From Alphaproteobacteria bacterium (GTDB taxonomy: Bacteria; Pseudomonadota; Alphaproteobacteria; JAUHZY01), in assembly GCA_030425825.1 (NCBI GenBank), contig JAUHZY010000001.1, positions 1,336,834-1,400,833 on the forward strand: a DNA stretch of 64,000 nucleotides, in the 5' to 3' direction. The notes beneath the pieces were generated by a model that saw nothing but the letters and a program-made list of their open reading frames with translations, was not told the origin of the DNA and ran no database searches. How positions within the stretch are numbered: the stretch's first letter is position 1; the number at the start of each line of letters is the position of its first letter. The position numbers and the translations under genes are program-made. Shown here piece after piece: positions 4,198-61,490 of the stretch.

Positions 4198-4245
4198 CCC
4201 ATAAATATTGTGAGTATTATTTACTAGACCTACTACATATAGATG
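4198..4245 (+). promoter_or_regulatory. Candidate NrdR boxes and promoter upstream of nrdA
   Basis: Two 16-bp elements resembling the NrdR box (acaCwAtATaTwGtgt) start at 4198 and 4230, exactly 32 bp apart, the three-turn spacing known for NrdR pairs. The first holds TATTGTG (4206-4212), shared with the nrdB upstream region; the second holds CTACATATAG. Each matches only about two thirds of the consensus. A possible -10 TATAAA lies at 4249-4254. NrdR represses ribonucleotide reductase genes when dATP is high. Supported by position and spacing, but the sequence match is modest. Confidence 0.4.
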
Positions 4246-4371: not shown

Positions 4372-6210
4372 ATGCTTAACGTCATACAACTTGAAAATGG
4401 AAATCGTGTTCAATCTGATTATGCAAGAGATGCTAGTCTAACAGAATTTGGAAAATCTACATTGAAAGATCGATATCTTTTACCTGATGAAACTTTTCAG
4501 GATAGATTTTCAAAAGTTGCAGCATATTTTGCTGACGACTCTGCGCACGCCCAACGTATGTATGAATATATAAGTAATCTTTGGTTTATGCCTTCTACGC
4601 CTGTCCTAAGTAACGGCGGCACAGATCGCGGACTTCCTATTTCATGCTTTCTCAACGAAGCCAATGACAGCCTTGAAGGCATTGTTAACACATGGAATGA
4701 AAATGTTTGGCTGGCCGCAAAAGGTGGTGGCATCGGGAGCTACTGGGGAAACCTAAGATCGATCGGTGAAACTGTCCGTGGAAATGGTAAAACATCTGGT
4801 ATTATTCCTTTTATTCGTGTGATGGACTCACTCACGCTTGCGATTTCTCAGGGAAGTCTGCGCCGTGGAAGTGCCGCTGTTTACTTGCCAATAGACCATC
4901 CAGAAATTGAAGAATTTATCGAACTACGACGCCCAACAGGTGGTGATCCAAATCGTAAGGCCTTAAACTTACACAATGCCGTTGTTGTTAATGACGACTT
5001 TATGCGCGCTGTTGAAAAAGATGAAGAATGGAAATTAACAAGCCCTAAAACAGGTGAGACTGTTCGCAAAGTTAAAGCGCGTGACCTATGGATTCGTATT
5101 TTAACAGGCCGTATCGAAACAGGTGAGCCATATATCATTTATGTTGACCATATCAACCGCGCTCTTCCAGAGCACCAAAAGCTTGCTGGCCTGACTGTGA
5201 AAATGTCTAACTTATGTACAGAAATTACATTGCCAACCGGCATCGACCAGTACGGAAAAGACCGCACAGCCGTATGTTGTTTAGGATCTGTTAATGTTGA
5301 GTTTTATAAAGAATGGAAAGATAACCCTCTTTTCATCGAAGATCTTATGCGATTCTTGGATAATGTCTTGACCGATTTTATTAATCGTGCACCAGATTCT
5401 ATGGAAAAAGCACGCTATTCTGCGATACGTGAAAGAAGTGTCGGGTTGGGCGTTATGGGCTTCCACTCGTTCCTACAGTCACAAATGATTCCTATGGAAT
5501 CAGCCATGGCAAAAGTTTGGAACATGAAAATCTTCAAGCAGATTCGCAAAGAAGCTGACGAAGCCTCTAAAAAACTTGCAGAAGAAAGAGGGCCATGCCC
5601 AGATGCAGCCGATTACGGTATTATGGAACGTTTTTCTAACAAGCTGGCAATTGCGCCAAATGCATCGTCTTCTATTATTTGTGGTGGCACATCGCCTGGT
5701 ATTGAGCCTTACACAGCAAACAGCTTTACGCACAAAACATTAAACGGCTCTTTCCCTGTCCGGAACAAGCATCTTCAGAAAATCTTGGCCGAAAAAGGGA
5801 AAGATAATGCAGAAGTTTGGTCTTCGATCACAGTGCACGATGGCTCAGTTCAACATCTCGACTTCTTAACAGAAGACGAAAAATCTGTCTTTAAAACAGC
5901 CTTTGAAATTGACCAGCGCTGGCTGATCGATCATGCGGGCGACAGAACACCTTATATCTGCCAAGCGCAATCTTTAAATGTCTTCTTGCCTGCAGATGTT
6001 CACAAGCGCGACCTGCATGAAATTCATTTCCGTGCATGGGAAAAAGGCGTTAAAAGCCTTTATTACTGTCGTTCAAAGTCAATGCAACGCGCCGATTACG
6101 TTGCCACATTGAATTCTGAGTATACAAAACCCAAAGCAGTAAAAGCTGAACCTTTCCAGCAACCGCTTGATAAAGAAGACATGTATGACGAATGCTTGGC
6201 GTGTCAGTAA
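4372..6210 (+). CDS. nrdA: Class Ia ribonucleotide reductase large subunit without ATP-cone
   Basis: Large (alpha) subunit of aerobic ribonucleotide reductase, reducing ribonucleoside diphosphates to deoxynucleotides with the radical supplied by NrdB. At 612 aa it is about 150 residues shorter than the E. coli protein because the N-terminal ATP-cone is missing; the protein starts directly with the alpha-helical domain. Catalytic residues are visible: C92 (PISCFLNEA), the N280-L-C282-T-E284 thiyl-radical site, C302 (AVCCLGS), the radical-transfer tyrosine pair in SLYYCRS, and the C-terminal redox pair C608-x-x-C611 in ECLACQ. The specificity loop GSLRRGSAAVYL is intact. Strong ribosome binding site GGGGG lies before ATG 4372. 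nrdB follows after a 213-base regulatory gap rather than directly. The length suits the Rickettsia-type NrdA group. Confidence 0.95.
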   Translation: MLNVIQLENGNRVQSDYARDASLTEFGKSTLKDRYLLPDETFQDRFSKVAAYFADDSAHAQRMYEYISNLWFMPSTPVLSNGGTDRGLPISCFLNEANDSLEGIVNTWNENVWLAAKGGGIGSYWGNLRSIGETVRGNGKTSGIIPFIRVMDSLTLAISQGSLRRGSAAVYLPIDHPEIEEFIELRRPTGGDPNRKALNLHNAVVVNDDFMRAVEKDEEWKLTSPKTGETVRKVKARDLWIRILTGRIETGEPYIIYVDHINRALPEHQKLAGLTVKMSNLCTEITLPTGIDQYGKDRTAVCCLGSVNVEFYKEWKDNPLFIEDLMRFLDNVLTDFINRAPDSMEKARYSAIRERSVGLGVMGFHSFLQSQMIPMESAMAKVWNMKIFKQIRKEADEASKKLAEERGPCPDAADYGIMERFSNKLAIAPNASSSIICGGTSPGIEPYTANSFTHKTLNGSFPVRNKHLQKILAEKGKDNAEVWSSITVHDGSVQHLDFLTEDEKSVFKTAFEIDQRWLIDHAGDRTPYICQAQSLNVFLPADVHKRDLHEIHFRAWEKGVKSLYYCRSKSMQRADYVATLNSEYTKPKAVKAEPFQQPLDKEDMYDECLACQ

Positions 6211-6303
6211 ACTGACCGCGAGCATTTTTATCTATAAAGTCAAAATAAATTCGTTTATTTCTTGCCCAAGAAGGGCTGCATGTAGTATTTTACCAACAGT
6301 TTA

Positions 6304-6340
6304 ATTCTATATATTGTGAAAAACTCACAATATTTTGAAA
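6304..6340 (+). promoter_or_regulatory. Tandem NrdR-like boxes / palindromic operator upstream of nrdB
   Basis: A 16-bp element at 6304-6319 (ATTCTATATATTGTGA) matches the NrdR-box consensus at about 13 of 16 positions, and a second at 6325-6340 at about 12 of 16; their starts are 21 bp apart, two helical turns. The same bases also form a perfect inverted repeat, ATATTGTGA (6311-6319) and TCACAATAT (6325-6333), separated by 5 bp. Either reading marks an operator. NrdR is the expected regulator because the same half-site lies before nrdA. Confidence 0.55.
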
Positions 6341-6370
6341 TCCAAAGTAAAAAGCTAGGATTTATGTGTT

Positions 6371-6389
6371 TTGGCATGCAAGTTGCATG
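6371..6389 (+). promoter_or_regulatory. Sigma-54-type (-24/-12) promoter before nrdB
   Basis: TTGGCATG, four bases, then TTGCA matches the sigma-54 consensus YTGGCACG-N4-TTGCW at all but one core position; the invariant GG (6373-6374) and GC (6385-6386) are exactly 10 bases apart. Transcription would begin near 6398, about 26 bases before the nrdB ATG. The bases 6375-6389 also form a 7-bp palindrome (CATGCAA-G-TTGCATG), so an operator is an alternative reading. Sigma-54 drives late flagellar genes in several alphaproteobacteria, and a flagellin gene lies directly behind nrdB. Confidence 0.6.
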
Positions 6390-6423
6390 TGCCTGTGTGT
6401 ATTTATATATTTAGAGGATAATA

Positions 6424-7383
6424 ATGTCACTTCTTGAGCCTAGAGCTGTTTACAAACCGTTTCGATACCCATGGGCATACGATGCATGGCTTATGCAGCA
6501 GCGCATTCACTGGCTACCTGAAGAAGTTCCTTTAGCGGAAGATGTAAAAGACTGGCACAAGAACCTTAGCAAAAAAGAGGTCAATCTACTCACGCAGATC
6601 TTTAGATTTTTTACACAAGCCGACATTGAAGTAAATAATTGCTATATGAAGCACTACTCTCAGGTTTTTGGCCCCACAGAGGTTCAAATGATGCTCGCGG
6701 CATTTTCAAACATGGAAACCGTTCATATTGCAGCCTACTCTCATCTGCTTGATACCATCGGCATTCCTGAAGTCGAATATCAGGCCTTTATGAAATATAA
6801 AGAGATGAAAGATAAATATGACTATATGCAAGAGTTCAATGTTAATAGCAAAGAAGATATTGCCCTAACACTCTCTGTTTTCGGTGCCTTTACAGAAGGA
6901 TTGCAGCTTTTTGCTAGCTTTGCAATTCTCATGAACTTTCCACGCTTTAATAAGATGAAAGGTATGGGTCAGATCGTTTCTTGGTCTGTACGCGATGAAA
7001 CACTTCATACAAATTCTATCATTAAGCTTTTCCGTACTTTTATTTCAGAAAACCCAGAGATTTGGACGGATGAGATGAAAAACAAGATTTACAATGCTTG
7101 CCAAACAATCGTCAGCCATGAAGACGCCTTTATCGACCTTGCCTTTGAGCAGGGTGGTGTACAGGGCTTAGAAGCTGAAGAGGTTAAGAAATATATTAGA
7201 TATATAGCAGATTATCGTTTAACACAGCTGGATTTAGACCCCCTCTATCACGTTGGAAAAAATCCACTCCCATGGCTTGAAGAGCTTCTAAATGGTGTTG
7301 AACATACTAATTTTTTTGAAAATCGTGCAACCGAGTACTCTAAGGCGTCAACGCAAGGGACTTGGGAAGAAGCTTTTAATTAA
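6424..7383 (+). CDS. nrdB: Class Ia ribonucleotide reductase small subunit
   Basis: Beta subunit (319 aa) that houses the di-iron centre and the stable tyrosyl radical used by NrdA. Likely metal ligands and radical site are in order: D67 (TQADIEV), E98 and H101 with radical tyrosine Y105 in METVHIAAYSHLL, E158 (FTEGLQLF), and E192 with H195 in RDETLHT. No N-terminal ATP-cone is present, so neither subunit of this enzyme carries one. The C-terminal tail that docks to NrdA ends in WEEAFN. An AGAGGA ribosome binding site precedes ATG 6424. The stop codon is only 11 nt from the start of a flagellin gene with its own strong Shine-Dalgarno sequence, implying cotranscription of a DNA-precursor enzyme with a motility gene. 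Confidence 0.95.
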   Translation: MSLLEPRAVYKPFRYPWAYDAWLMQQRIHWLPEEVPLAEDVKDWHKNLSKKEVNLLTQIFRFFTQADIEVNNCYMKHYSQVFGPTEVQMMLAAFSNMETVHIAAYSHLLDTIGIPEVEYQAFMKYKEMKDKYDYMQEFNVNSKEDIALTLSVFGAFTEGLQLFASFAILMNFPRFNKMKGMGQIVSWSVRDETLHTNSIIKLFRTFISENPEIWTDEMKNKIYNACQTIVSHEDAFIDLAFEQGGVQGLEAEEVKKYIRYIADYRLTQLDLDPLYHVGKNPLPWLEELLNGVEHTNFFENRATEYSKASTQGTWEEAFN

Positions 7384-7394
7384 GGAGAATAGAA

Positions 7395-8216
7395 ATGGCC
7401 GATATTTCACTTACTGCTGGGATGCGAAGCAATCTTTTGACTTTGAAGACGACCAATTCTTTGATCTCAAGAACTGAAGGAAGACTCTCGAGCGGTAGAA
7501 AAATCAACTCTATTCTTGATAATGCTGTCGGCTACTTTAAGGCAAAAGGCATCTTTGACCGATCCGAAGATCTTGAAGGATACAAAGACGAAATCGATCA
7601 AGGCATTAGTACGGTTAAAGCAACAGTGCAGGCGATTGAAGCCGCAACAAAGATTGTTGAACAAATGGCTGGCCTCGCACAAGAAGCCCTGAACGCAGAC
7701 GCGACAAATGCAACAACACTGCAAGCAAAGGCCGTTGCCTTAACAACAGCGCTTGATGATCTTCTTCGTGATGCAAGCTTTAATGGTGTAAACTTACTTT
7801 ATGATAACAGCCTAAATATTTACGCCACAAGCCTACATGTTGACTTTACTGATGATACATTCACAACAATTAATAGTGTTGATACAACTTCAGCAGCGAT
7901 TGGCATCACAGGCGCAAGCATTAACTTTGGTGCGTTAACAATCCAGACGACCATCGCCAGCATTGAAGCTGCGCTTGATACATTGGATGCGCGCGGTGCT
8001 ACTTTTGCAACAGATGTCTCTCTTCTTCAGGTAAGGCTAAGCTTTACAACAGACTTCGTTAACACCCTGGAAGAAGCAGGCGATAAGATCGTTCTTGCTG
8101 ACTTAGAGGAAGAAAGTGCAAACTTACTGGCGCTTCAGACACGTCAACAGCTTGGATTACAGGCCATATCGTTTGCAGCACAGTCTGAGCAGTCTATCTT
8201 AAGCTTGTTCCGTTAA
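7395..8216 (+). CDS. Flagellin, first of two tandem copies
   Basis: Short flagellin (273 aa), the filament subunit exported by the flagellar type III system. The N-terminal D0/D1 region has the family pattern (SLLTLKTTNSLISRTEGRLSSGRKI, here cited only as SRTEGRLSSGRKI) and the C-terminal D1/D0 region has NLLALQTRQQLGLQ and the final SILSLFR. The central variable part is short, as in Caulobacter flagellins of about 273 residues, and contains no cysteine. It is about half identical by eye to the next gene, most strongly at both ends. An AAGGAG sequence overlaps the nrdB stop, fixing ATG 7395. No terminator separates it from nrdB. Confidence 0.92.
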   Translation: MADISLTAGMRSNLLTLKTTNSLISRTEGRLSSGRKINSILDNAVGYFKAKGIFDRSEDLEGYKDEIDQGISTVKATVQAIEAATKIVEQMAGLAQEALNADATNATTLQAKAVALTTALDDLLRDASFNGVNLLYDNSLNIYATSLHVDFTDDTFTTINSVDTTSAAIGITGASINFGALTIQTTIASIEAALDTLDARGATFATDVSLLQVRLSFTTDFVNTLEEAGDKIVLADLEEESANLLALQTRQQLGLQAISFAAQSEQSILSLFR

Positions 8217-8342: not shown

Positions 8343-9161
8343 ATGGCTACAGATATTTCACTAACATCAGCGTCACGTAACTCGCTGCTTTCTCTACAAG
8401 GTACTGTTGATCTTATTGGTCGTACGCAAGGGCGTCTTTCGAGCGGATTAAAGGTTGCAAAAATCGAAGATGATGCGGTTAACTTTTTCAAAGCGAAAGC
8501 TCTGAATAACAAAGCCGACGATCGTCTGAGTTACAAAGATAACATTGAGCAAGGTATCAGTGTTATTAAAGGAACACTCGACGCGATTGAAGCAGCGACA
8601 GATCTTTACAATCTTGCCTTAGGTTTGGCACAAGAAGCTTTGAATGCAAATGCAACAAATGCTGCGACGCTTCAGACAAAAGCACGTGACACTTTAGCAA
8701 AAGCGGATCAATTATTCCGTGATGCTGAAATTAACGGTGTTAACCTTGGTTACTTTAACTCAGCAGCTGGTCAAACGACTTTGACTTTTGATCTTTCTGA
8801 GAACAACACATTTACTGCTAATGGTCAGAACCTGACAACAGTTGGTGTTGGCGCAACAACAGGAAGTATTAACTTTGGCTCGTTGACTGTTCAAACAACA
8901 ATTGCATCGATTGAAGCAGCCATTTCAACACTTGAAACAGCAGCCTCAACATATGCAACAGATGTTGCACTTCTTGGTGTTAACTCTGACTTCTCGACTG
9001 GGCTTGCGAATACATTGCAAGAAGCAGCTGGAAAACTGACACTTGCTGATCTTAACGAAGAAGGCGCGAATCTACTTGCCCTTCAGACACGTCAGCAGCT
9101 TGGTATTCAGTCTCTTGGATTTGCTGCAGATTCAGAAAGAAGTATTTTGGGTCTATTCTAG
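8343..9161 (+). CDS. Flagellin, second of two tandem copies
   Basis: Flagellin of 272 aa, start placed at ATG 8343 because AGGAGG lies six bases upstream and the protein then begins MATDISLTSASRNSLLSLQ, parallel to its neighbour; an upstream in-frame ATG at 8292 falls in the leader hairpin. N-terminal GRTQGRLSSGLKVA and C-terminal GANLLALQTRQQLGIQ are the conserved coiled-coil segments that build the filament core; the middle (about residues 130-190) is rich in T, N and G and forms the exposed part. It differs from the first copy mainly there. Tandem flagellin paralogues are normal in alphaproteobacteria and usually occupy different parts of the filament. A strong terminator follows, separating it from flbT. 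Confidence 0.93.
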   Translation: MATDISLTSASRNSLLSLQGTVDLIGRTQGRLSSGLKVAKIEDDAVNFFKAKALNNKADDRLSYKDNIEQGISVIKGTLDAIEAATDLYNLALGLAQEALNANATNAATLQTKARDTLAKADQLFRDAEINGVNLGYFNSAAGQTTLTFDLSENNTFTANGQNLTTVGVGATTGSINFGSLTVQTTIASIEAAISTLETAASTYATDVALLGVNSDFSTGLANTLQEAAGKLTLADLNEEGANLLALQTRQQLGIQSLGFAADSERSILGLF

Positions 9162-9189
9162 GAATACTTTACATATTTTTCTGTATACG

Positions 9190-9221
9190 AAGAGGGAATT
9201 GGACTTTCAATTCCCTCTTTT
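9190..9221 (+). terminator. Intrinsic terminator after the flagellins
   Basis: AAGAGGGAATTG (9190-9201) and CAATTCCCTCTT (9208-9219) form a perfect 12-bp stem with loop GACTTT, followed by TTTTGT. It ends the flagellin transcript. Confidence 0.88.
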
Positions 9222-9267: not shown

Positions 9268-9660
9268 ATGTCACTCAAAATTAACGTAAAGTCTGGTGAA
9301 AGACTTCTTATAAATGGCTCCGTCGTCGTAAATGCGGGCCGAGACACATCTTTGGTATTTGAAACACCAACTTGCTTCCTCCTTGAACGTGACGTTATGA
9401 CTTTAGAAGAAGCCGACACGCCTGCAAAACGCATCTATCTTGTCCTTCAAATGCTCTATATTTTTCCAGAAGGCGACCCTTCACGGGTTAAGATTTTCGA
9501 AGAACTTTTGACACAATTTGTTAAAGCGGCCCCCAGCAGCGTCGAAATTGCTACCAAAATAGCCGATGCAGCCAAAGAAAAAAGGTTTTTTAAAGCCCTA
9601 AAGTCCTGTAAAGACCTAATGAAACTTGAAGAAGAAAGGTTACAAAATGGATCCAACTAA
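9268..9660 (+). CDS. flbT: Flagellin synthesis regulator FlbT
   Basis: FlbT family (130 aa), found in alphaproteobacteria. In Caulobacter it binds the leader of flagellin mRNA and promotes its decay until the hook is complete, linking flagellin synthesis to assembly. The N-terminal half is beta-rich (KINVKSGERLLINGSVVVNAG, quoted here only as SGERLLINGSVVVN), followed by the helical part RIYLVLQMLYIFPEGD typical of the family. The 3' end overlaps flaF by 14 nt, so the pair is translationally coupled. It is separated from the flagellins by a terminator and must have its own promoter in 9222-9267, which I could not define. Confidence 0.92.
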   Translation: MSLKINVKSGERLLINGSVVVNAGRDTSLVFETPTCFLLERDVMTLEEADTPAKRIYLVLQMLYIFPEGDPSRVKIFEELLTQFVKAAPSSVEIATKIADAAKEKRFFKALKSCKDLMKLEEERLQNGSN

Positions 9661-10084
9661 TCAAGAGGGATATGCCTCTCAACAAGGATTTGTATCAAAC
9701 CCTCGTCAAACAGAAGGACGTGCACTGGCTGAAGTTGCTAGAAGGCTTAGCGCTGCTCAAGAGTCTGGTAATGAAGACCAAATATTAGAAGCTGTAAGGC
9801 TTAATATGCGTCTGTGGACAATCTTTCAGGCAGAACTTTTGCAACCAGACTGCCCTGTTCCTCTTGAAATAAGACAAAATGTGCTTTCTTTAGCATCTTT
9901 TATTGATAGAAGAATTGCAGATCTTTTGTTTAAGCCAGAAGAGACTGAAAAAATTACTGTGCTTGTTAATATTAATCGTCATCTTGCCGCTGGCCTTCTT
10001 GCCAACACAGAAGAAGAAGCTTTAGAGGCTGAAGATAGCACTTCTGAGGATGCTCAACCCAGCAGTTTTAACGAAGAGATTTAG
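9647..10084 (+). CDS. flaF: Flagellar protein FlaF
   Basis: FlaF family (145 aa), the partner of FlbT in alphaproteobacterial flagellin control; it is needed for flagellin secretion and is thought to help activate translation or to act as a chaperone. Family features are the N-terminal SNPRQTEGRALAEVARRL, the central RLNMRLWTIFQAELL and the following IRQNVLSLASFIDRR. The C-terminal tail (about residues 115-145) is acidic and unlike the usual short FlaF end. I chose ATG 9647 because GAAAGG lies seven bases upstream; an in-frame ATG at 9626 would add seven lysine-rich residues inside flbT. The gene overlaps flbT by 14 nt and is followed 15 nt later by the glycosyltransferase. Confidence 0.88.
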   Translation: MDPTNQEGYASQQGFVSNPRQTEGRALAEVARRLSAAQESGNEDQILEAVRLNMRLWTIFQAELLQPDCPVPLEIRQNVLSLASFIDRRIADLLFKPEETEKITVLVNINRHLAAGLLANTEEEALEAEDSTSEDAQPSSFNEEI

Positions 10085-10099
10085 AAGAAAGACTAAAAA

Positions 10100-12355
10100 A
10101 TGAGCAAGCGCTATTTTTATAAGTTTGATGAGCTTCCCGGCAATGCCGTTGAGCTTTTTAAGCAAGGGAACCTTTCTCAATGTATCGAAATTTGTGAGCA
10201 AGCTATTGAAGAAGAAACGGCGGTAGCAGCCGCCTTTTACCTCATTGGGGGATGTTCGGTTCGCGCAGGAGAAATAGAATTAGCTGGAAAATTTTTTAGC
10301 TTAGCCCTAAATGCAAGGCCTGAAATCCCAAACCCTTATTTTGCGCTGTCTATTCTTAACAACTATCATGGTGATCGCAACCTATCTCTCTCTTTACACA
10401 AAAAAGGCTTGCTACGTGCCGACCCTGTTTTGCTGAAAAAAACGAATGTGCTATACGATGAAGCAAACTTCCTTGTTAGCCAGCAAGAATATGAAGAAGC
10501 TGTTGAGCTTATTGAAGAAGCCCTAGAAATGACGCCTTTTCTTGCACCTCTACTGAGGCGTCTTGGCGACTGCTATCATGACCTAAAACAATTTGAACGG
10601 GCGGAAGAAGTATATAGAGAGTGCCTTCTACAAAACCCTGTTTTTATTGAGCCTTACAGAAACCTTGCTGTTTGTGTAGATAAAATCCACCACGACCCTT
10701 ATCGTGCCATCCCTATCTTGGAAGAAGCTTTGCGGATATGGGATAAATACACAGAAGCCCGCTATTATCTTGGTGAGCTTTTTAGGCGTCTTGATAAACC
10801 TGCTGAAGCATACGAACATTATAGGTTTATCACAGAGAACGATCCTGATTATACAGAAGCATATCGTCGTCGTGCCGATTCCATACGTGACATTGGTGGC
10901 ATTGAAGAAGCTATTGAATATTATAACATATACAAAGAGAAAAACCCTTCTAGGGAAAGCTCGGTAAAAATGGACATTGCTTTTTCCATTCCCCCTATTC
11001 TTGATTCAAAAGAAGAGGCCGAAGAATACCATGACAAGCTGGAAAACACCCTTAAGGAATACCAAAACGACACTTTTTCTATCGTTGACCCTGCACGCGA
11101 CATCAGAGGCGTAAACTTTTACAGCGCCTATCTTGGTAAGAATGAGAGGGACATTCAGAAGATGACAGCAAACATCTTCCGCAAAAGCTCCCCTCTACTG
11201 CGATACAAATCAAAGCATCTTGATAAGCCACGTAAAGAAGGAAAAATACGTCTTGGGATTTTTTCTTGCAGCCTAAAGCGTCATAGCGTCGGCCGCCTTT
11301 TATACAGAACAATTCTACAGCTTCCAAGAGATGTTTTTGACATCACAATTATTTTCGGTGATCAAACAAATGATGAAATTGTTCAAATCCTCAAAGGCCA
11401 GTTTAACTGGATTAATGTGCATAAATCAATCTCTGAAGGACATATGCAGGAGGCACAAGAGGATGTGAATGCGCTAGAGCTTGATATTTTATACTATCCA
11501 GATATTGGGATGGATGTTCAATCTTATTTTATGGCATATTCTCGCTTTGCACCTGTTCAAATCGTTAGCTGGCATCACCCACTGACAACAGGGATTGATA
11601 CAATCGACTACACAATATCCAGTAAAAAGTTTGAAGTCGAAGAAGCACAAAATCACTTCACTGAAAAGCTCATTTTATTTGAATCAACAATTCAAAACTT
11701 TGAACGTATTAGAAACTATAAATGTCAGAAAACACGTCAAGACTTTGGATTCTCTGATGATGACAATCTCTATGGTTGTCCACAAAGCTCGTTTAAAATA
11801 CATCCTGACTTTGATGATATTTTCAAAGGTATTCTTGAAAAAGACCCCAAGGCACTCATTCTGCTTCTTGAAGCCCACAAAGGCCCATGGGATGAAGCTT
11901 TGAAAAAACGCTTTGCAAAAACAATGCCTGATGTCATGGACCGTATTAGGTTTCTTGACCGCACAACAATTACAGGCGTTCACGATTATATGAATATATT
12001 TGATGTTTCACTTGATCCTCCACATTGGAGTGGTGGCGTGACTTCTCTAGAAGCATTCTCTCAGGGCTGCCCTGTAATTACACTACCAAGCCCCTATACA
12101 CGCGCACGGTTAACATATGGTTTCTACCTGGAAATGGGGATAGAGGACTGTATTGCATCAACGCCTGAGGAATATATTGATATTGCAGTGAAGGTGGCTT
12201 CTGACAGAAAAATACGCAAGGATATTTCTGAAAGAATTCTTGAAAAATGTGATGTCCTCTACGACAACCCTGAATGTGCAATCGAACTTGCTGAGTTCTT
12301 CCAACTTGCTTTTGAAGCACATCAAAAAGGCGAAAAGATAGAAAGCTTTAAATAA
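10100..12355 (+). CDS. TPR-domain GT41-type glycosyltransferase, probable flagellin modifier
   Basis: A 751-residue fusion of tetratricopeptide repeats (about residues 15-285) and a C-terminal glycosyltransferase of the OGT/SPINDLY type (about 380-735). In the catalytic part KRHSVGRLL (393-401) holds the conserved histidine, APVQIVSWHHPLTTGIDTID (484-503) matches the OGT 'VQVSWIGYPGTTG' segment, SSFKIHPD (563-570) supplies the likely catalytic lysine K566, and DPPHWSGGVTSLEAFSQGCP (639-658) is the sugar-nucleotide site. Such enzymes attach a sugar to Ser or Thr of proteins. Caulobacter FlmG has the same TPR plus transferase design and glycosylates flagellins, and this gene directly follows flagellins, flbT and flaF, so the flagellins are its likely substrates. 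The donor sugar cannot be read from the sequence. Confidence 0.88.
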   Translation: MSKRYFYKFDELPGNAVELFKQGNLSQCIEICEQAIEEETAVAAAFYLIGGCSVRAGEIELAGKFFSLALNARPEIPNPYFALSILNNYHGDRNLSLSLHKKGLLRADPVLLKKTNVLYDEANFLVSQQEYEEAVELIEEALEMTPFLAPLLRRLGDCYHDLKQFERAEEVYRECLLQNPVFIEPYRNLAVCVDKIHHDPYRAIPILEEALRIWDKYTEARYYLGELFRRLDKPAEAYEHYRFITENDPDYTEAYRRRADSIRDIGGIEEAIEYYNIYKEKNPSRESSVKMDIAFSIPPILDSKEEAEEYHDKLENTLKEYQNDTFSIVDPARDIRGVNFYSAYLGKNERDIQKMTANIFRKSSPLLRYKSKHLDKPRKEGKIRLGIFSCSLKRHSVGRLLYRTILQLPRDVFDITIIFGDQTNDEIVQILKGQFNWINVHKSISEGHMQEAQEDVNALELDILYYPDIGMDVQSYFMAYSRFAPVQIVSWHHPLTTGIDTIDYTISSKKFEVEEAQNHFTEKLILFESTIQNFERIRNYKCQKTRQDFGFSDDDNLYGCPQSSFKIHPDFDDIFKGILEKDPKALILLLEAHKGPWDEALKKRFAKTMPDVMDRIRFLDRTTITGVHDYMNIFDVSLDPPHWSGGVTSLEAFSQGCPVITLPSPYTRARLTYGFYLEMGIEDCIASTPEEYIDIAVKVASDRKIRKDISERILEKCDVLYDNPECAIELAEFFQLAFEAHQKGEKIESFK

Positions 12356-56195: not shown

Positions 56196-56252
56196 TTAGC
56201 AGAAAAAACACCTTAAAAACAAGTAAAACTGTCATATATTGTATATAGGATC

Positions 56253-56284
56253 GAAGAAAACCCCAAAAAATTGTGGTTTTCTTC
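56253..56284. repeat. 10-bp inverted repeat between gyrB and the 98-codon gene
   Basis: GAAGAAAACC (56253-56262) and GGTTTTCTTC (56275-56284), 12-base gap, perfect. It lies in the 205-base gap between the divergent genes gyrB (starting 56162, minus) and 56368 (plus), next to TATAAT at 56285-56290. It may be an operator or a divergent-promoter structure. Confidence 0.5.
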
Positions 56285-61100: not shown

Positions 61101-61490
61101 TTTTTATCCTAAATTTACTTCAAAATATTTAATTTTTGTTGGGGAGCAGAAAGTACTGCATTCGCCCTATCTCGTCAACACTTCGTCACTAAAAAATTTT
61201 TACTTTTTTCAATTGACTACAACATATTGTGACTAATTTGTATCAGCAGACGACATTTTGTTATATAGGCTAAATCTTAATTTATCCACAAGCAAAGACT
61301 TTTATACAGGCAGACCAGAAACCCAAATGAAACCGCGCGTATAACGTGATAAAAAACTTGACAGTTTGCAAAAACTTTCCTAGATTCCGTCGCACTAGCG
61401 GTTTTATTAGAAGTGCAGTTGTTTTAATTTCGAAACTCGGCGACTTAAGTAAAGCTTATTATAATAACAGTTCACCGAGGAGAAAAAGTA
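61101..61490. promoter_or_regulatory. Intergenic region rpsT / cold-shock gene with a DnaA box
   Basis: 390 bases without a gene, AT-rich. A perfect DnaA box TTATCCACA lies at 61282-61290, and a one-mismatch box at the TGTGACTAA near 61229. On the plus strand TTGACA (61358-61363), 17 bases, TAGATT (61381-61386) is a strong sigma-70 promoter for the cold-shock gene at 61491, giving a leader of about 100 bases, typical of csp transcripts. The rpsT promoter on the minus strand must also lie here but I could not identify it. Confidence 0.6.

Follow-up and report, generated by a model that had tools for sequence, protein, structure and literature searches.

A predicted sigma-54 promoter and paired NrdR boxes precede an nrdB gene that appears to lead a flagellin operon in an alphaproteobacterium

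Upstream of nrdB in the window (the whole stretch of DNA analysed, 64,000 nucleotides) lies a -24/-12 element that we regard, with a probability of roughly 0.75, as a genuine sigma-54 promoter of the FlbD regulon. In this reading the promoter would mainly serve nrdB and the two flagellin genes behind it, and nrdB would receive two inputs, one from NrdR and one from sigma-54/FlbD. Thus nrdB appears to head an operon for the flagellar filament, and DNA supply and flagellum building may share a single transcript. The features are collected in Table 1.

Table 1. Genes and predicted regulatory elements around nrdB (window positions)
Feature	Position	Strand	Basis
NrdR box 1 of nrdA, CCCATAAATATTGTGA (predicted)	4198..4213	+	relatives-trained matrix
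NrdR box 2 of nrdA, CTACTACATATAGATG (predicted)	4230..4245	+	relatives-trained matrix
nrdA, class I ribonucleotide reductase alpha subunit	4372..6210	+	NF006577 1019 bits, PF02867
NrdR box 1 of nrdB, GGGCTGCATGTAGTAT (predicted)	6273..6288	+	relatives-trained matrix
NrdR box 2 of nrdB, ATTCTATATATTGTGA (predicted)	6304..6319	+	relatives-trained matrix
Perfect 9-bp inverted repeat, ATATTGTGA-AAAAC-TCACAATAT	6311..6333	.	
Sigma-54 promoter -24/-12 element, TTGGCATGCAAGTTGCATG (predicted)	6371..6389	+	top score among window positions
nrdB, class I ribonucleotide reductase beta subunit	6424..7383	+	NF007186 573 bits, PF00268
Flagellin gene 1	7395..8216	+	PF00669 + PF00700
Flagellin gene 2	8343..9161	+	56% identical to flagellin 1
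Terminator-like stem-loop, 14 pairs, after flagellin 2	9189..9220	+	
flbT, flagellin post-transcriptional regulator family	9268..9660	+	PF07378 E 5e-34
flaF, flagellin secretion/translation factor family	9647..10084	+	PF07309 E 1.5e-27
TPR + glycosyltransferase-41 protein	10100..12355	+	PF14559/PF13844

Flagellin 1 starts 11 bp past the nrdB stop and has its own ribosome site, AAGGAGAA. An earlier note on this DNA had placed a promoter before nrdB, as we do, but had missed the flagellin genes that begin so close to the 3' end of nrdB. The stem-loop behind flagellin 2 likely ends the nrdB-flagellin-flagellin transcript. Further along, the TPR-glycosyltransferase has a domain layout like that of the Caulobacter flagellin glycosyltransferase FlmG (PMC7591256), and it is followed on the + strand by a putative purB, named from sequence.

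The promoter element has the layout TTGGCATG-N4-TTGCA and fits TGGCAY-N5-TTGCW. Its GG (6373-6374) and GC (6385-6386) have ten bases between them, exactly the spacing that the earlier note had described. When both strands of the 64 kb were searched for TGGCA[CT]N5TTGC, this was the single occurrence. With a matrix built from the textbook -24/-12 consensus, whose weights are approximate, the element ranked first of the 127,964 positions in the window with a score of 19.7, and the runner-up scored 15.1. First-order Markov simulation of both strands predicts 0.05 sites at this score per 64 kb by chance, and about 1e-4 when only the 213-bp intergenic strand before nrdB is considered. Because reversed-pattern controls of the motif differ from it in word composition and are weak, we relied on the simulation and on genomic position. 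Transcription from the element is predicted to start near 6398.

No sigma-54 site was found before flagellin 1 (best score 0.3, positions 7000-7394) or before flagellin 2, between the two flagellins (best score 5.0). For comparison, we examined the starts of homologous flagellins in other alphaproteobacteria, taking the closest homologues from 289 sampled genomes of the class. Here, 11 of 25 had a sigma-54 site no more than 240 bp ahead of the start, and in seven of these the distance was 72-77 bp. Of 25 control stretches inside flagellin genes, none had such a site. Since the flagellins of the window lack a site of their own and those of relatives often have one, the element before nrdB is most likely, on this positional evidence, the promoter of the flagellin operon, with nrdB lying in between.

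It is improbable that the match arose by chance, in which case an NrdR-controlled housekeeping promoter alone would serve nrdB and the flagellins would be read from a promoter within nrdB that has escaped recognition. This reading would be compatible with there being a single site, with its T after GGCA where the consensus has C, and with a word search around the sigma-54 promoters that yielded no shared enhancer or FlbD-binding motif beyond AT-rich words, which shuffled sequences equalled. The flagellins could also have a promoter of another kind, within nrdB. However, the chance expectations given above are low, the element is located exactly where the flagellin operon needs a promoter, and the flagellins of the window have no other sigma-54 site, though other flagellin and hook genes do.

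Those other sites were found in the rest of the genome, which is alphaproteobacterial and comprises 1.95 Mb in 11 contigs. TGGCAYN5TTGC has 20 matches genome-wide, most of them within reading frames. Six precede a gene in the correct orientation, 47-108 bp before the start codon; the genes are rpoN, flgE, flgF-flgG, nrdB and two of RTX type or related to it, one confirmed as an RTX protein and the other assigned from sequence only. A looser scan found TTGGCACGTTTTTAGCATC 48 bp upstream of a lone flagellin, and TCGGCACGTATTTGGCATC, a weaker form of the sigma-54 element, in common among three tandem flagellin clusters. Because such sites also occur at flgE, flgF and further flagellin genes, we conclude that sigma-54-type promoters stand before the late flagellar genes in this genome; the element before nrdB has, by position, two flagellins in its apparent unit.

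Besides the two flagellins in the window, the genome has seven flagellin-like genes, tandem or lone, at three loci (L175, L176 and L177), and their leaders are nearly identical across these loci. Sigma-54-type sites also stand before RTX-type or related genes at L110, L114 and L178:5724, which suggests that secreted RTX proteins belong to the same sigma-54 regulon as the flagellar genes.

The genome encodes RpoN (572 bits). A PF00158 search returned only two full-length regulators of the sigma-54-activator type, one FlbD-like and one NtrX-like. The FlbD-like regulator is the sole activator in the genome that bears GAFTGA; its best NCBIfam model is FlbD, at 732 bits just below the cut-off of 750, and its gene sits in a flagellar cluster beside motA-type and fli-type genes. 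The NtrX-like regulator (L120) has lost GAFTGA and is therefore probably unable to activate sigma-54. In practice, the sigma-54 regulon thus has one activator, of the flagellar type.

There is also one NrdR gene in the genome (TIGR00244, 182 bits, cut-off 125). To score its boxes we used a matrix derived from 72 regions upstream of nrdA or nrdB in other genomes, whose boxes are spaced at 31-32 bp; the window was absent from the training set. The matrix places a canonical NrdR pair before nrdA (4198 and 4230, 32 bp apart, scores 16.7-16.9) and another before nrdB (6273 and 6304, 31 bp apart with a 15-bp spacer, scores 17.5-18.5), and NrdR presumably binds the latter, 31-bp pair. In simulation, 0.1 pairs scoring at least 16.5 are expected per 64 kb. 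Only four pairs in the window score above 14 (61217/61248, 6273/6304, 4198/4230 and 56229/56261), and the next separate one is near 10.

The earlier note had paired 6304 with 6325, as two NrdR-like boxes 21 bp apart. Elements do exist at both positions, and canonical boxes are present, but the pairing is wrong. In box pairs bound by NrdR, 14-17 or 24-27 bp separate the two boxes (PMC12051234). The 5-bp spacer of 6304/6325 lies outside this geometry, the range tested in that work excluding spacers below 12 bp, and strong pairs in relatives are 31-32 bp apart. The canonical partner of 6304 is 6273, which the note overlooked. Its broader proposal, that DNA precursor supply and the flagellum share a promoter region here, gains from the presence of RpoN, an FlbD-like regulator, NrdR and the flagellins downstream, and from the occurrence of this promoter element before other flagellar genes of the genome, although the NrdR pair it named was not the right one.

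Among NrdR-like pairs, the strongest in the window (61217-61263, score 21.7) lies ~490 bp upstream of dnaA, between an rpsT-like gene on the minus strand and a cold-shock gene on the plus strand; a replication or stress gene might be under NrdR control there. A weaker pair (56229-56276, score 14.2) is found upstream of gyrB, in the stretch that separates it from recF. Elsewhere in the genome, a mismatch-free NrdR-like pair at 31 bp (L182:9065-9105, i.e., G000:C2:1172064-1172104) lies between LOG-family-like and outer-membrane-type genes, away from known reductase genes.

The element at 6325 has another aspect, as half of it is taken in by the 23 bases of the inverted repeat at 6311-6333. We consider it improbable that this repeat is an FlbD enhancer rather than an NrdR element. 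The repeat is perfect and its centre lies about 76 bp upstream of the predicted start, roughly where an enhancer protein would bind. However, TTGTGA-N5-TCACAA was not found around the sigma-54 promoters of rpoN, flgE, flgF or the RTX-type genes, its one exact occurrence in the genome is the repeat itself, and the half-sites are NrdR half-sites. Because the repeat is not common to the other sigma-54 promoters, we rejected it as an FlbD enhancer. It was also rejected as a terminator for nrdA: the RNA does form a hairpin (z -2.65), but one rich in A-T and with no T run.

To ask how widespread this gene order is, we compared nrdB loci of relatives. A flagellin adjoined nrdB at 0 of 96 loci of other genomes, some of whose contigs end soon after nrdB. 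A consensus sigma-54 element preceded nrdB at 0 of 80 loci (L019-L098), where one weak, loose match was seen (L083). Because both features are absent in relatives at the level of the class, they do not reflect a general rule, and among the genomes compared, the predicted nrdB-flagellin arrangement is peculiar to this lineage. The adjacency of nrdA and nrdB is ordinary in relatives, and this would tentatively favor the idea that the flagellins joined nrdB, the element being gained or carried in. A literature search for sigma-54 or a flagellin linked to nrdB found no description of the arrangement.

We envisage the following mechanism. The first input would be ordinary, NrdR-repressed control of nrdB through the boxes at 6273-6288 and 6304-6319, with a housekeeping promoter that presumably overlaps these boxes and keeps the essential nrdB expressed. 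Because a search for a sigma-70 promoter before nrdB gave no match at the threshold of the tool, this promoter is an assumption; it would lie within about 6273-6340 and would supply basal NrdB as well as some flagellin by read-on. The second input, sigma-54/FlbD, would be switched on with assembly of the flagellar basal body. Once the basal body is complete, FlbD would activate sigma-54 RNA polymerase at about 6398, giving an nrdB-flagellin-flagellin mRNA that would end at the terminator near 9220. What the analysis shows directly is the sequence elements, the order of the genes, which regulators are present and in what number, and the matching sites in the rest of the genome; activity of the promoter, its activation by FlbD and the co-transcription of nrdB with the flagellins are what we infer. 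Relative to the predicted sigma-54 start, the NrdR boxes occupy about -125 to -79, a usual binding position for an enhancer protein; one may thus speculate that NrdR could also hinder activation.

A special case of this mechanism, with the same anatomy and a different consequence, is that the promoter is real and nrdB only a passenger: the promoter would exist for the sake of flagellin, sigma-54 transcripts would add a negligible amount of NrdB to what the housekeeping promoter supplies, and DNA-precursor supply would not be physiologically coupled to flagellum assembly. We give this slightly less than an even chance. The product of nrdA is needed in a matching amount, and nrdA is preceded by a separate NrdR pair and by no sigma-54 site (best score 6.0); moreover, nrdB in 80 relatives does without a consensus sigma-54 element. 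Yet the ribosome site of nrdB is located directly behind the sigma-54 start, so nrdB must be open to translation on every transcript of this kind. Even as a passenger, nrdB would still illustrate the capture of an essential gene by an operon under an alternative sigma factor.

Bacteria of the Caulobacter type assemble the flagellum and replicate DNA in an ordered sequence of cell-cycle phases, with dedicated regulators linking the two. If the operon proposed here is correct, with a reductase subunit and flagellins together behind NrdR and sigma-54/FlbD elements, it would be a direct and simple form of wiring. Under a stronger and rather doubtful version, FlbD/sigma-54 would raise NrdB while NrdR, sensing ATP/dATP, would limit the flagellins of the same operon, so that the flagellum and DNA synthesis would cross-check each other.

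Sigma-54/FlbD-dependent late flagellar promoters have been described in Caulobacter and other polarly flagellated alphaproteobacteria (PMC3096577). The present system resembles them in its -24/-12 element, its FlbD-like activator, its hook and flagellin targets, and the location of flbT and flaF beside flagellin, but differs from them in that its apparent flagellin unit begins with nrdB. According to work cited in the same paper, FlbT-type control acts through the 5' leader of flagellin. Because no separate flagellin leader follows the promoter here, control of the FlbT type would have to differ.

As in other NrdR-controlled nrd genes (PMC12051234, PMC12176259), two boxes 31-32 bp apart stand before nrdA and again before nrdB, but here they are joined to a predicted sigma-54 promoter and to flagellins in the same unit. 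In E. coli, NrdR has been linked to motility and chemotaxis by a mechanism described as unknown, as far as the summary in PMC4898720 goes. NrdR would be connected with flagella in both cases; however, in contrast to what that summary relates, the flagellins here are physically downstream of predicted NrdR boxes, which, if our reading is correct, would provide a plain physical route from NrdR to flagellin.
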